This document shows positions 2-35,637 of a DNA stretch of 35,716 nucleotides, one piece after another; positions within the stretch are counted from its first letter, which is position 1; each line of letters begins with the position of its first letter. Source of the DNA: Rhodothermales bacterium (GTDB lineage Bacteria; Bacteroidota; Rhodothermia; Rhodothermales; UBA10348); assembly GCA_028284865.1 (NCBI GenBank), contig JANQQV010000001.1:1-35716 (forward strand). Direction: 5' to 3'. The notes beneath the pieces were generated by a model. It made no database searches. It was not told the origin of the DNA and saw nothing but the letters and a program-made list of their open reading frames with translations. The position numbers and the translations under genes were made by a program.

Positions 2-112
2 GCTGGTGTAGACCTGGATCTGTCGGGCACGCGCCTGCAGGTCGACTACGCTCTGCGTTCGACGGACTACTTCAGCAACGTCTCCATGATCACGGCTGCT
101 ATCGGTCTCTAG
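2..112 (+). CDS. C-terminal fragment of a probable outer-membrane beta-barrel protein (PorV/PorQ-like)
   Basis: An open frame runs in from the left edge and ends at TAG 110-112, leaving 36 codons. The fragment has alternating polar and hydrophobic residues (LQVDYALRST, then MITAAIGL), as in the closing strands of an outer-membrane barrel. The 'VDYA.R.TDYF.NV' pattern resembles the C-termini of PorV/PorQ-type proteins of the Bacteroidota, some of which serve type IX secretion. A strong terminator follows directly, which supports a real gene end. The family call rests on about 35 residues and is tentative; another barrel family is possible. Confidence 0.45.
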   Translation, partial: AGVDLDLSGTRLQVDYALRSTDYFSNVSMITAAIGL

Positions 113-331: not shown

Positions 332-2557
332 ATGACTTTCTGGCGCAGGACATTGTTTGCGTTTGTCGTCATGACGCCTTTCCTGATTGCGATTGGGTGC
401 TCCTCCTCGGATTCGGAGGATGTATCTGGTGCAGGTGTATCTGGTGCAGATGTATCTGGTACGAACGTATCCGGGGCTGACGGGTCAGCTGATATTGTTT
501 TCCTCAATCTGGGAGATGAAGCGGAGTTTGTAGGTGATGCGGCGTGCTTCGATTGCCATGAAGACGCTTACCGTGGCTATCAGGAGCATGGGATGGCCAA
601 TTCCATGTATCTGCATTCGGCCGACGTTGCTGTAGAAGCGTTCGGTGGTGAGATCGTAGTCGACTCCACAACAGGCCTTCATTATGAGAACGTGGCCACC
701 GATTCAGGCTACGTTCAGATTGAATTCCTGCTTGATGATGATGGAATCCGGATTCACGAACTCGCTCGTCCCCTTGAATGGGTAGTTGGCTCCGGGACAT
801 CGGCCAGAACGTATCTGACTGAGCAGGACGGTTGGTTCTACGAATTACCGATAACCTGGTACACTCAAAAAGGGAAGTGGGACTTCAGCCCCGGCTACCG
901 GATCGCCAACAAACGTTTCGATCGGAAGATTGCCGATCGGTGCATGGCCTGTCACAACAGCTACCCGGAGCCGGTCATCCAGACAAATGGCATGTACACC
1001 GATATGCCTTCCGGCATCGGCTGCGAACGTTGCCACGGTCCCGGATCTGAGCATGTGGACGCTAGACTGGTTTCTGATCCACCAGATGGGCAACCAGATG
1101 TCACAATTGTTAATCCAGTACATCTCTCGCTGGACAGGCGTCTGGATGTGTGCCAGCAGTGCCACTTGAACGGCACCGTGTCGTTGCTCCGTGACGGTGA
1201 GGATGCCTACTCCTTCCGCCCGTCTCGTGCCCTGGGAGACTACATCGCCCTTTACACTGGTTTGGAGCACGTGGAAGGAGAAGGCGAAGGTATTTCAGTC
1301 ATCTCCCAGGCGGAACGCATGAAGCAAAGTGCGTGCTTCATCGAGACGTTGAATACCCCACAGCCGATGGAATGCACGACATGTCACAATCCGCATGAAG
1401 ACTTCCGTTCGGCGGGTGATGCATACTTCAACGTGACGTGCATGACCTGTCACGCCGGCGATGACCTCGCCGGCATTGACGCCGGGTCCGCTTTGAAAAC
1501 CCATACGGTTGAGGCCAATTGTATCGATTGCCACATGCCAAAGACCGGGACGATTGATGCTCCGCACTCCAGCTTCACTGACCACTACATTCGCGTCGTT
1601 GAAGATGAAGAAATGGAGCCAGCGCGCTCTGAAGAAGCCGACGTACTGACCGCCTACTTTGAACGGGATCGTTCTGGTAGCGGCGAAGGACGTGTCTACG
1701 AAGGTATGGCGTACATCACCCGCGGATACCAGGGCGGTGATCCGGAATACCTGGATCAGGGGATTGCCATACTGGACGAGGCATTCGAAGACGGGCACAC
1801 ACTGAGCGAAGCCGTGTACCTTCACGGCTACGCGCATCTGCTCCAGGAGCGGTACGAGCAGGCCATTCCCTCACTGGAGGAGTCAGTCCGTTTGGAGCCT
1901 GACAAAGCCGAACGACTGAATGCACTCGCACAGGCCTACGAGTTTGTTGGTGATCGCGATCCGGTCCGGGTTGAACGTCTCTACCGAGAGGCACTGCGCA
2001 TTCAGCCAAAGTTGACAGACATCCGGCTGAATCTGGGCCGATTCCTTCAGGCTCGAGGGCGGGCAGACGACGCGGCTGGCGAGTATCGTCAGGTCATCGC
2101 GGATGAATCATGGAATGCCCTGGGGTACTACAATCTGGGTACCGTGGCCTTGCAGCAGGGGTTGCTGGACGAGGCGGAGACACATCTCCGACAGGCCATC
2201 CAGTTGGATCCGATGGATGGTGCGTCCCTGAGCAATCTCGGTCTGGTTCATCTGCAACGAAACGAGATCAGCCAGGCACGAGAAGTCCTCCTGACGGCTG
2301 TGGAGAGAGCACCTGAGAATGCTGAAGCTCTCGACAACCTGGGGTCGCTTTACCTGAACCTCGAAATCGAGGAAGAGGCGGTTGAATACCTCTCCAGGGC
2401 AGCAACATTGATGGCCTCTTCGGCTGACATCCATGCGAAACTGGCTTTGGCCCTGTTCCGGATTGAGCGCTACGAAGAGGCGGAACGTAGCGCTCGCCGA
2501 GCCCTATCAATAGATGCGAGTCATCCGCTGGCGACACAGATCATGCAGGCGCTATAG
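332..2557 (+). CDS. Lipoprotein with seven CxxCH haem motifs and C-terminal TPR repeats
   Basis: This 741-residue product starts with a signal peptide and lipobox (FLIAIGC, Cys at about 22), so it should be a lipid-anchored envelope protein. The ATG at 332 is preferred over an in-frame TTG at 248 because it puts the signal peptide at the N-terminus. Seven CxxCH sites begin at residues 72, 204, 231, 274, 348, 370 and 397 (CFDCH, CMACH, CERCH, CQQCH, CTTCH, CMTCH, CIDCH), which implies covalent c-type haems as in cytochrome c554-like proteins. From about residue 455 to the end there are tandem TPR units (for example ALGYYNLGTVALQQG), a protein-binding scaffold. A VSGA-type repeat lies just after the lipobox. 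It likely transfers electrons in the periplasm or at the surface; donor and acceptor are unknown. It converges on an FG-GAP/ASPIC-UnbV gene. Confidence 0.88.
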   Translation: MTFWRRTLFAFVVMTPFLIAIGCSSSDSEDVSGAGVSGADVSGTNVSGADGSADIVFLNLGDEAEFVGDAACFDCHEDAYRGYQEHGMANSMYLHSADVAVEAFGGEIVVDSTTGLHYENVATDSGYVQIEFLLDDDGIRIHELARPLEWVVGSGTSARTYLTEQDGWFYELPITWYTQKGKWDFSPGYRIANKRFDRKIADRCMACHNSYPEPVIQTNGMYTDMPSGIGCERCHGPGSEHVDARLVSDPPDGQPDVTIVNPVHLSLDRRLDVCQQCHLNGTVSLLRDGEDAYSFRPSRALGDYIALYTGLEHVEGEGEGISVISQAERMKQSACFIETLNTPQPMECTTCHNPHEDFRSAGDAYFNVTCMTCHAGDDLAGIDAGSALKTHTVEANCIDCHMPKTGTIDAPHSSFTDHYIRVVEDEEMEPARSEEADVLTAYFERDRSGSGEGRVYEGMAYITRGYQGGDPEYLDQGIAILDEAFEDGHTLSEAVYLHGYAHLLQERYEQAIPSLEESVRLEPDKAERLNALAQAYEFVGDRDPVRVERLYREALRIQPKLTDIRLNLGRFLQARGRADDAAGEYRQVIADESWNALGYYNLGTVALQQGLLDEAETHLRQAIQLDPMDGASLSNLGLVHLQRNEISQAREVLLTAVERAPENAEALDNLGSLYLNLEIEEEAVEYLSRAATLMASSADIHAKLALALFRIERYEEAERSARRALSIDASHPLATQIMQAL
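422..481 (+). repeat. Four 15-bp tandem repeats coding VSG(A/T)x
   Basis: Four consecutive 15-nt units related to gtatctggtgcagat encode the pentapeptides VSGAG, VSGAD, VSGTN and VSGAD. They sit at residues 31-50 of the haem/TPR lipoprotein, just after the lipidated cysteine. They probably form a flexible tether between the membrane anchor and the haem domain. The copy number could vary by slippage. Confidence 0.85.
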
Positions 2558-2623
2558 GCGTCTGCGTCGGCAGGGTATTTGAACGCGACGCCAAGCCACT
2601 TGTCACCGTCTGTCGACCGACCG

Positions 2624-4501
2624 TCAGTATCCGAGTACCACAAACGGTCTGCTTTCGTCGGACCAACTGCCGGCTACGCTAACTTTGAGCAGGTAGAGAC
2701 CAGCGGCCCACGAGGACGTATCCAATCGAATCTCCTGTCGGCCAAAGCCAGCTTGACCGGATGCCATACGTCGGCCAAGCGCATCATAAACCGTCCACGT
2801 CTGTGCCCAATCGGTACTGGCTGGAATCCATTCCGAGGGAGAATCAGCCGGGACGGATTCAAGGATGAACGAAACGTGGTCTCGAGCCGGATTGGGATAA
2901 ACGGCCGTCGAGGATTCTGGTAATGAGAGCTCTTCCGTGTTCGTGGCAATCAGCGTTCCCGTGCCCTGAACCAACGTGCGCAACGTGGAAGCTGGGCCGC
3001 CTTCCCATCGTTCCGTCATCCCACCTGGCCAGATCACTTCGATGGCATCGTAAGATGTCAATGACCCCAGCCCGAACATGGCCGGCTGGATGTTCTGACC
3101 CAGGAAATCTACCCCGTTGTGGAATCGCTTCTGTTCGCCTTTTGCCGTGAACAGCGTGATTTCGGAGCCGAAGCCTTCAAGATTGGCCGACGAACCCTGC
3201 AGCCCGACTTTGAGCCAAGTGTTGGTTGTGCCGGGATGGGTAAGCAGATACAGCGGCTCATCCCAGTTGGTAATAAGCAAATCCGGATCGCCATCATTCT
3301 CAACGTCAAACACCAGCAGACCGTGCGACTCAGCACGTCCGTCAGCCTGGCTGCTTGCCGAAGCATCTTCAAAACGGAAAACGCCGATATCCGCCTTTCT
3401 GTTCTTGAAGTAGCGGTTTGGCGTACCCCGTTCGATGAGCGCACCGTTTACCACGAACAGGTCCAGGTCGCCGTCCAGATCGCCATCGAACATCTCCGTT
3501 CCCCAGGCCCAATCCGTGTTGGCAATACCCTCTGCCTGAGCCGTGTCAATTAGTGGCCCTACGGCTGCGCCCAGGAAGAACGTATTCAACAGCATGTCGC
3601 CGCCGCGAACTGCATTGTTCGTGACGTAAAGGTCTGGAAAGCCGTCTCCGGATGCATCTCCAAGGGCGAGGCCCATGCTTTCGCCCGGGTCGCCGAGACC
3701 CCATTCGGATGTGCGGTCAGCGAACTGGCCGTTCTTGAGGTTGATGAACAGCGTGTTTGGGCCGAAATCATTCGCCAGATACAGATCTGGCCATCCGTCC
3801 CTGTTTACATCCCAGGACATGCTCATCCATGTCCGGTCTTCCAGATCCATGCCCGTGGACTCGCTGATGTCCTCGAACGTCCCGTCTCCGTTGTTTCGAT
3901 AGAATCGATTGGGCCCATTCCAAGAGCTGAGGTAGAGATCAAGGTATCCGTCCAGATCGAAATCGAACCAGGTGGCCCCGGCCGTCTCGAAATCATCTGT
4001 GGTGCCATCAGCAGGGTTCAGTCCGGCATCGGTCGCCACGTCGGTGAACGTGCCATCACCGTTATTCCGGAAAAGCACTTCTGGTCCGACATGGGTCAGC
4101 AACAGGTCCGGATCGCCATCGCGATCGTAGTCCGCCCAGGCCACGGAGAACTTGTTTCCGAAGACCTTCGCCGGGAGATCTGGGAGGAAATCCACCTGCG
4201 CGCCGGCGGACGCGGTGACATCTTCGAATGTGCCGTCTCCATTATTCCGGAACAGGCGATTCCATGAGCGTGGGTTGAACGGATCGTGTTTCCACCGGGC
4301 CGCGATATACAGATCCTGATCCCCGTCGCCATCATAGTCTGCAGTTCCGACCCCATGCCCTTGCCACATCGCGTCGAGACCGGCGTCATATGTCCGGTTT
4401 TCAAACACCTGACCCGCAGCATCAGGGACCACCACAAGCCAGCTCATCAGACAGCACGCGGCCGTCAGAATTGCGGGGACTATATGGTTTTGGTTGGTCA
4501 T
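2624..4501 (-). CDS. Secreted FG-GAP/VCBS repeat protein with ASPIC/UnbV domain and type IX sorting tail (CRTAC1-like)
   Basis: The 625-residue product has a signal peptide (AILTAACCLMSWLVVVPDAAGQ). From about residue 35 to 390 it carries repeated FG-GAP/VCBS units with calcium-loop motifs such as DYDGDGDQDLY, DYDRDGDPDLL and DGDLDGDLDLF, predicted to form a beta-propeller. Residues about 424-514 match the ASPIC/UnbV domain (WLKVGLQG...GFGSEITLF...IEVIWPGG). The last 90 residues are a Por-type sorting domain (VYPNPARDHVSF, VYDALGRRMASG, WAAGLYLLKV), so export by type IX secretion to the cell surface is expected. Such proteins often lie beside TPR or cytochrome genes, as here. The function of the family is not well defined; surface binding or adhesion is a guess. 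Confidence 0.9.
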   Translation of the reverse strand: MTNQNHIVPAILTAACCLMSWLVVVPDAAGQVFENRTYDAGLDAMWQGHGVGTADYDGDGDQDLYIAARWKHDPFNPRSWNRLFRNNGDGTFEDVTASAGAQVDFLPDLPAKVFGNKFSVAWADYDRDGDPDLLLTHVGPEVLFRNNGDGTFTDVATDAGLNPADGTTDDFETAGATWFDFDLDGYLDLYLSSWNGPNRFYRNNGDGTFEDISESTGMDLEDRTWMSMSWDVNRDGWPDLYLANDFGPNTLFINLKNGQFADRTSEWGLGDPGESMGLALGDASGDGFPDLYVTNNAVRGGDMLLNTFFLGAAVGPLIDTAQAEGIANTDWAWGTEMFDGDLDGDLDLFVVNGALIERGTPNRYFKNRKADIGVFRFEDASASSQADGRAESHGLLVFDVENDGDPDLLITNWDEPLYLLTHPGTTNTWLKVGLQGSSANLEGFGSEITLFTAKGEQKRFHNGVDFLGQNIQPAMFGLGSLTSYDAIEVIWPGGMTERWEGGPASTLRTLVQGTGTLIATNTEELSLPESSTAVYPNPARDHVSFILESVPADSPSEWIPASTDWAQTWTVYDALGRRMASGQAGFGRQEIRLDTSSWAAGLYLLKVSVAGSWSDESRPFVVLGY

Positions 4502-34968: not shown

Positions 34969-35041
34969 GCTGGCATAGCTCAGCTGGTAGAGCAGCTGAT
35001 TTGTAATCAGCAGGTCGGGGGTTCGAGTCCCTCTGCCAGCT
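34969..35041 (+). tRNA. tRNA-Thr (TGT)
   Basis: The acceptor stem is GCTGGCA with TGCCAGC and the discriminator is T. The D arm AGCTCAGCTGGTAGAGC, the anticodon stem GCTGA/TCAGC with loop TTTGTAA (anticodon TGT) and the T arm GGGGGTTCGAGTCCCTC all fold. CCA is not encoded. First of four tRNAs ahead of tuf. Confidence 0.96.
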
Positions 35042-35048
35042 CGATTGG

Positions 35049-35063
35049 TCAAGGTTTCCTTGA
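35049..35063 (+). other. Small hairpin between two tRNA genes
   Basis: TCAAGG and CCTTGA flank a TTT loop, with two further pairs possible outside, in the spacer between tRNA-Thr and tRNA-Tyr. It may help processing of the joint precursor; no T-run follows, so it is not a terminator. Confidence 0.4.
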
Positions 35064-35111
35064 TCGATAAGCTTGATCGGATTCATCGTCAGGTGGTCCG
35101 CAATACATATT

Positions 35112-35194
35112 GGACGGGTACCGAAGCGGTCAACCGGGCTGGACTGTAAATCCAGTGTCTTTCGACTTCGGAGGTTCGAATCCTCCCCCGTCCA
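35112..35194 (+). tRNA. tRNA-Tyr (GTA)
   Basis: A class II tRNA of 83 nt with the long variable arm of bacterial tRNA-Tyr. The acceptor stem is GGACGGG with CCCGTCC and the discriminator is A. The anticodon stem CTGGA/TCCAG holds the anticodon GTA. It reads the Tyr codons and is a possible substrate for the queuosine made via queA, whose gene lies about 3 kb upstream. Confidence 0.96.
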
Positions 35195-35244
35195 CACTGC
35201 ACTGCGCCGTGCGCGATGCGCCAGGCGCTGAGCAGACTGCGTAA

Positions 35245-35320
<76 letters not shown>

Positions 35321-35362
35321 TGGTCCTCTGTTCGGCAGCAGGGCCGGTCGACCCGACGCAGT

Positions 35363-35434
<72 letters not shown>

Positions 35435-35637
35435 CAAACACGATGCTGGACTGTGCATCCCCCGGAGTGTCGAGCTCAACGCCTCGGGATCAGAAGTTCG
35501 GAAAAGCACCGTGCGCCTCGCGGCATCGTTCGCAGGGCGGGAGAGAAGCCAGAGTTGGCCTTTCTCACCTGACGGTCCAAACAGGACCACTATTTAATGA
35601 GACACCTGCAGGTAGCAACTCCAATAGGTATTCCAAC
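35435..35637 (+). promoter_or_regulatory. Leader region of tuf
   Basis: The 203-nt gap between the last tRNA and tuf has no credible gene. It holds a small hairpin GGTCC/GGACC (35574-35578 with 35584-35588) and an AT-rich TATTTAAT at 35591-35598, but no element pair that fits the promoter consensus. tuf may therefore be read through from the tRNA promoter. Confidence 0.35.

Follow-up and report, generated by a model that had tools for sequence, protein, structure and literature searches.

A predicted seven-haem TPR lipoprotein and its convergent ASPIC/UnbV neighbour in Rhodothermales: an optional and possibly docking pair

Closest described systems

Multihaem c-type cytochromes differ in haem number, with nine haems in OcwA, ten in MtrA, four in cytochrome c554 and five in NrfA. 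The 741-residue protein considered here (P0001) resembles all four in its CxxCH-rich domain, which has detectable sequence kinship with theirs. Unlike them, it has seven haems, a TPR solenoid and the features of a predicted lipoprotein, and its Cys335 is unmatched in the OcwA-type structure 6i5b. The gene that faces it encodes a member of ASPIC/UnbV, a large family for which we know of no settled function; the FG-GAP beta-propeller of such proteins is of the calcium-binding type. Like UnbV_ASPIC proteins and cartilage acidic protein 1 (CRTAC1), the neighbour combines an FG-GAP propeller with an ASPIC domain. It differs from CRTAC1 in bearing a type A sorting domain of the type IX secretion system (T9SS), and in this clade its gene may adjoin that of a haem-TPR lipoprotein.

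Two described gene arrangements are similar in part. FG-GAP/CRTAC1 genes lie beside genes for hydrazine synthase subunit homologs in clades I-III, according to excerpts of PMC12758564; as far as those excerpts go, the partner proteins and the operon differ from ours, and no such gene was seen beside the pair described here. Excerpts of PMC12618676 describe cognate shuttle barrels for type B cargo that are often encoded beside the cargo. In relatives of our locus, the gene for a large surface protein is likewise followed directly by a barrel gene, as in the SprB/SprF type of cargo and shuttle in those excerpts. Unlike SprF, however, this barrel belongs to the PorV/PorQ family, a TonB receptor gene accompanies the two, and a dependence on secretion is putative here. 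Among the titles and abstract openings of the open-licence literature, we found no report of a haem-TPR/ASPIC pair or of the triad together with a cytochrome.

The convergent gene pair

The stretch of DNA analysed (the window; 35,716 nucleotides) is an entire contig, C7, of a Rhodothermales genome of 3.48 Mb in 28 contigs (G000). Its first features are as follows.

2-112, plus strand: 3' end (36 codons plus stop) of a gene for an outer-membrane barrel of the PorV/PorQ family, truncated at the contig boundary
156-208, plus strand: terminator-like hairpin with a 14-bp stem (156-169 / 187-200), a 17-nt loop and the tail TTTGTTTT
332-2557, plus strand: seven-haem c-type cytochrome with a C-terminal TPR solenoid, predicted lipoprotein, 741 aa (P0001)
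2624-4501, minus strand: FG-GAP / UnbV_ASPIC (CRTAC1-type) protein with a type A T9SS sorting domain, 625 aa
4563-5546, minus strand: YpdA-type putative bacillithiol disulfide reductase (TIGR04018, 438.5 bits)

P0001 contains seven CxxCH motifs, with their first cysteines at 72, 204, 231, 274, 348, 370 and 397. It matches the Pfam models Cytochrome_C554 (35.7 bits; cut-off 20.8) and Cytochrome_C7 (29.7 bits; cut-off 24.8) as well as many Pfam TPR models, corresponding to about eight TPRs; the NCBIfam matches listed (25 of 27) are all under the cut-off. The AlphaFold model has a mean pLDDT of 86.5 and shows 17 consecutive helices from residue 451 onward. By eye, Cys23 is a putative lipobox cysteine after a signal peptide. 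The motif is weak, with alanine at -3; an alignment of 24 rows has Cys23 in at least 90% of them, and relatives of P0001 have better lipoboxes.

A profile of the haem domain matched several cytochromes of known structure: 6i5b, which we take to be OcwA (7.6e-16), chain A of 6r2q, presumably MtrABC (4.7e-14), cytochrome c554 1bvb (4e-13), MccA (1.3e-9) and nitrite reductase 1gu6 (0.0007). No MtrB-type porin was found beside the cytochrome, the neighbouring barrels in relatives matching PorV/PorQ and TonB-receptor models. Foldseek searches of the P0001 model against the PDB and viral models were set aside. The 50 matches listed for each database are mostly TPR-type or helical-repeat proteins with a few others, and none is a cytochrome by title, so the searches are uninformative on the haem domain.

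The 625-residue protein has five FG-GAP_3 stretches (132.9 bits) and an UnbV_ASPIC match of 33.7 bits (Pfam cut-off 23.4; 38.3 bits in the genome search). Its C-terminal region matches Por_Secre_tail (30.1 bits; cut-off 27) and the TIGR04183 sorting domain at residues 534-611 (28.6 bits; cut-off 23). The CRTAC1 structure 9etn was its sole PDB sequence match at E <= 0.01 (7e-19). Given that the genome encodes SprA (1932 bits) and PorU (965 bits), a type IX export route is present, and the propeller is predicted to be exported by it. The two genes lie tail to tail with a gap of 66 nt. A first-pass annotation of the window had described them as a convergent pair of a seven-haem TPR protein and a T9SS-tailed FG-GAP/ASPIC-UnbV protein, a description that is confirmed by the motifs, the Pfam and NCBIfam scores, the AlphaFold model, SprA and PorU. 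Because 47 of 48 homologs keep seven CxxCH motifs and the convergent pair recurs in four further Rhodothermales genomes (G004, G006, G010 and G025), the pair is not a chance arrangement.

A seven-haem TPR family across bacteria

A homology scan of genome contigs recovered 223 relatives of P0001, of which the best 80 were kept. These best 80 span Rhodothermales and other Bacteroidota, Ignavibacteria, Marinimicrobia, Calditrichia and KSB1, and they include Gemmatimonadetes, Acidobacteria, Planctomycetes, Myxococcota and one betaproteobacterial genome. Among them, the closest named relative of the pair is JAURNP010000151.1 (L145), from a Rhodothermales MAG.

The haem number is nearly constant. 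Exactly seven CxxCH motifs occur in 47 of the 48 homologs from 14 genomes of other phyla, which were selected regardless of haem number, and in 98 of 100 proteins of a second set, which includes P0001 and was pre-filtered for at least six motifs. In the alignment of this pre-filtered set, Cys335, Ser333, His241, His355 and His418 are present in 100 of 100 proteins, and His412 and Met88 in 93 of 100. Cys335 and the conserved His241, His355 and His418 fall outside the CxxCH motifs. By these conservation counts, the conserved histidines are too few to cap seven haems. In the one alignment made to 6i5b, Cys335 is not paired with a cysteine. P0001 thus belongs to a widespread family of seven-haem TPR proteins, for which we found no name and whose extra cysteine is invariant.

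G000 itself has a second seven-haem TPR paralog on another contig (C26). Six loci (L090, 4277-18322; also L096, L197, L202, L209 and L214) have this paralog or a relative of it upstream of genes for pyruvate kinase and PorW/SprE. A choice-of-anchor B protein is encoded near the haem-TPR paralog in L090 and L197, and an eight-CxxCH protein in L090 and L202.

Three loci of Marinimicrobia (L167, L168 and L181) have, after the haem-TPR gene, a gene for a small protein and then a triad of TonB receptor, surface protein and barrel genes. By eye, ABC-transporter-like genes precede the haem-TPR gene, and the N-terminus of the L167 protein resembles a membrane anchor rather than a lipobox.

Conservation of the locus in Rhodothermales

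The search covered the genome of the window and 59 relatives, and 51 of these 60 had a match at E <= 1e-40. Conservation was counted over 46 loci from the 45 genomes whose best match reached 428 bits or more; G003, G009, G018, G032, G033 and G054 were dropped for weaker or partial matches. Upstream and on the same strand, a PorV-like gene is present in 30 of 40 visible loci. The order in relatives is a TonB-dependent receptor gene, a gene for a surface protein of about 1100 residues and then the PorV/PorQ-like barrel gene, with the surface protein in 26 of 39 visible loci and the receptor in 20 of 39, several of the misses being contig ends. The C-terminus of the surface protein has weak matches, under the cut-offs, to PorZ and T9SS sorting models, and its AlphaFold model is poor (pLDDT 49.5). 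On the other side, the YpdA gene lies within 3 kb downstream in 28 of 46 loci, contig ends not removed, and within 200 nt of the cytochrome gene in 21 of 46. In many ASPIC-free relatives it comes directly after the cytochrome gene.

A hairpin of at least 12 pairs with a T-rich tail follows soon after the PorV-like gene in 23 of 30 loci, the window included. Of 1200 size-matched random windows drawn from these loci, 28 contained any qualifying hairpin and 9 contained one of at least 12 pairs. No such hairpin follows the PorV-like gene in G002, G008, G058, G049, G022, G030 or G039. The standard hairpin scan permits loops of 3-8 only, and the hairpin of the window is not in its list. Given this recurrence of the hairpin relative to random windows, the cytochrome gene is most likely its own transcription unit, separated from the triad by a predicted terminator. 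We considered the triad and the cytochrome as one operon and demoted this possibility because of the hairpin (23 of 30 loci) and because ypdA is retained to a similar degree.

The ASPIC gene is a minority feature of these loci. It lies within 6 kb of the haem-TPR gene in 6 of the 40 loci with a visible downstream side and is absent from 34. The two genes are convergent in G000, G004, G006, G010 and G025; in G015 the arrangement is divergent, and the PorV-like gene and the cytochrome flank two ASPIC genes. By kinship, all six ASPIC-adjacent loci belong to the window's family (21 visible loci), with 0 of 19 visible loci outside it. G001 and G002 fit the same layout, with a cytochrome gene that ends at a contig end and an ASPIC gene that ends close to one, but the linkage there is unproven.

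In a tree of 36 ASPIC proteins, the cytochrome-adjacent ones fall in one supported clade, except for the second copy of G015, and this clade also includes the non-adjacent proteins of G022 and G033. The three other ASPIC loci of G000 and nine loci of the nearest non-adjacent relatives have no TPR neighbour (0 of 12), so ASPIC can stand alone in the window's clade. Among 11 further ASPIC loci, viewed with flanks of about 1.5 kb, a haem-free TPR protein adjoins in two (L068 and L070).

ASPIC neighbours in other phyla

Fourteen genomes of Planctomycetota, Acidobacteriota and Myxococcota, hand-picked from the 21 loci of these phyla in the homology scan (best 80 of 223), hold 243 ASPIC places and 48 haem-TPR homologs. 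Of the loci, L219 and L212 come from a single MAG, and L194, L195, L210, L211, L223 and L224 were left out. Of the 48 homologs, 7 have ASPIC within 600 nt and 11 have it within 3 kb, against density-based expectations of 0.185 and 0.90. Because ASPIC was known beforehand in L198, L207, L212 and L221, the 15 first-scan loci were also removed for a separate count, which gave 4 of 33 within 600 nt (0.139 expected; Poisson P 1.4e-5, a value that assumes independent loci, an assumption violated by paralogs of one genome) and 7 of 33 within 3 kb (0.67 expected). Two of the four have the convergent layout of the window, both in G069.

As a control for the TPR part alone, we used 95 merged TPR loci (matches at E <= 1e-8) more than 1.5 kb from a haem-TPR match in the same 14 genomes. 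A listed ASPIC place lies within 2 kb of 19 of these 95 loci (1.71 expected) and of 5 of the 48 haem-TPR genes (0.58 expected; Fisher P 0.16), both groups being scored against 150 listed of the 243 ASPIC places. Within single genomes, ASPIC is near 4 of 8 TPR loci and 2 of 4 haem-TPR genes in G066, and near 10 of 28 and 2 of 6 in G069. The TPR proteins of the 19 ASPIC-adjacent loci, the ones checked for CxxCH content, have no such motif except for one protein with a single motif. These 19 loci include five convergent pairs and three single-frame TPR-ASPIC fusions, the latter in Acidobacteriota genomes (L294, L300 and L305). Three Acidobacteriota genomes (G065, G066 and G069) account for 17 of the 19. 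In the Planctomycetota genomes ASPIC is near 0 of 13 TPR loci, too few to tell; two haem-TPR genes of G061, a member of this phylum, do have ASPIC nearby.

Because the TPR proteins of the 19 ASPIC-adjacent control loci are essentially haem-free, ASPIC neighbours TPR proteins generally in these genomes, and the candidate association of ASPIC with haem proteins specifically is undercut (19/95 versus 5/48). The link may follow the TPR arm rather than the haems, in Acidobacteriota at least. The reading in the first-pass annotation is partly supported. Co-occurrence above background, which that annotation had set as one of its own tests, is borne out (7 of 48 against 0.185, and 4 of 33 against 0.139 expected), although in Rhodothermales the neighbours are a minority (6 of 40). 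The annotation had also suggested that the two could form an electron-transfer or binding module. A joint electron-transfer role is unsupported as such: haem-free TPR loci adjoin ASPIC as often, and the neighbouring therefore gives an electron-transfer module no special support.

Possible functions of the pair

We suspect that P0001 is a membrane-anchored redox lipoprotein related to OcwA, MtrA, cytochrome c554 and NrfA, in which the seven covalent haems would form an electron-carrying or catalytic domain and the solenoid of about eight TPRs would dock partner proteins. The convergent gene would supply an FG-GAP beta-propeller exported by the type IX system. Where both genes meet, the TPR arm may bind the ASPIC propeller or the surface target of the propeller, and the haem domain would have a separate redox function that most members use without an ASPIC neighbour. 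We thus favour an optional TPR-ASPIC docking pair over a dedicated electron-transfer module, with a probability of roughly 0.38; the contact, the location and the redox role are ones that we infer. Contact needs an outward-facing lipoprotein or binding before export, which counts against docking, as do the absence of ASPIC in 34 of 40 Rhodothermales loci, the 0 of 12 loci of the clade with a TPR neighbour and the weight of Acidobacteriota (17 of 19 loci) in the TPR control. The ASPIC/UnbV counts suggest a testable class of partners for this family, namely TPR solenoids, haem-bearing or haem-free. A wider possibility is that TPR solenoids across phyla take ASPIC/UnbV proteins as ligands or cargo and that in Rhodothermales such a docking pair was placed on a redox lipoprotein, the exported propeller thereby bringing a seven-haem reductase with a cysteine-tuned active haem to the cell surface; this seems quite improbable to us.

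One alternative is that the cytochrome gene is a transcription unit of its own, flanked by a terminated gene set upstream and a convergent gene downstream, that an ASPIC gene was inserted or kept between it and ypdA in one family, and that the two proteins never meet. We hold this plain neighbourhood and TPR-ASPIC docking about equally likely, and either explains the pairing better than electron transfer does. The hairpin upstream (23/30 versus 28/1200) and the convergent orientation argue against a shared transcript, the region is syntenic, with YpdA (28/46) kept about as well as the PorV-like gene (30/40), and the cytochrome-adjacent ASPIC proteins share their clade with the non-adjacent ones of G022 and G033. 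Left unexplained by plain neighbourhood are the TPR-ASPIC fusions, the pair of ASPIC genes that separates the PorV-like gene from the cytochrome in G015, and the renewed adjacency of the two families, also in other orientations, in Planctomycetota and Acidobacteriota. A different doubt concerns the haem domain, which could be an enzyme rather than a wire, with the invariant Cys335 at a catalytic haem. Several sulfur-handling cytochromes have a cysteine at the catalytic haem; Cys335 and Ser333 are in 100/100 proteins, the conserved histidines are too few to cap seven haems, and Cys335 is without a cysteine counterpart in the 6i5b alignment. We consider this rather unlikely, in that the haem ligands would be assigned from conservation alone and an invariant cysteine may be structural.

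It is less probable still that the cytochrome serves as redox lipoprotein in a complex with the triad, for uptake or reduction at the outer membrane, ASPIC being incidental. The upstream PorV-like gene (30/40), surface protein (26/39) and TonB receptor (20/39) are consistent with such a complex, and the Marinimicrobia loci L167, L168 and L181 carry the triad downstream of the cytochrome, with a surface protein that scores 366-427 bits, against 135-152 for the other triads of G000. Side-by-side shuttle and cargo genes are also known for type B cargo in the excerpts of PMC12618676. However, the three Marinimicrobia loci have one common layout and may be a single lineage, a terminator-like hairpin lies between triad and cytochrome in 23 of 30 loci, and the retention of the triad is much like that of ypdA on the opposite side. 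Moreover, the PorV-like gene is missing at this place in nine genomes whose upstream DNA is visible, and surface-protein/barrel sets without a cytochrome exist (on C15, and as triads on C22 and C23).

Contig ends and further triads

The partial barrel gene at the start of the window encodes a product 97% identical to residues 325-360 of a G006 protein, and its G004 ortholog matches the PorV/PorQ family model NF033709 (114.7 bits; cut-off 90). G000 holds two copies of the surface-protein/PorV-like barrel gene pair (window 2-112, C18:4-3631, C15:4-3555 and C3:93192-93299), and these seem to have interrupted the assembly inside the PorV-like gene. The ends of C7 and C3 have exactly 99 bases in common, as do the ends of C18 and C15, a pattern consistent with a break in the assembly at a repeat. 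Judging by synteny, the window probably continues upstream into C18, the join being unproven. In a homology search of G000, neither C3 nor C15 gave a match to P0001.

Elsewhere in G000 there are more triads with no adjacent cytochrome, each made up of a TonB receptor, a surface protein (1143-1208 aa) and a PorV-family barrel (L130-L132; C23:328486-329933, C23:390578-392034 and C22:207981-209397). The triads of G000 are a repeated T9SS-linked gene set. At C9:153558-158139 (L129), three tandem proteins of about 550 residues show kinship to the surface protein over its first 454 residues. Near the far end of the window, at 34969-35435, is a cluster of four tRNA genes (Thr, Tyr, Gly, Thr).
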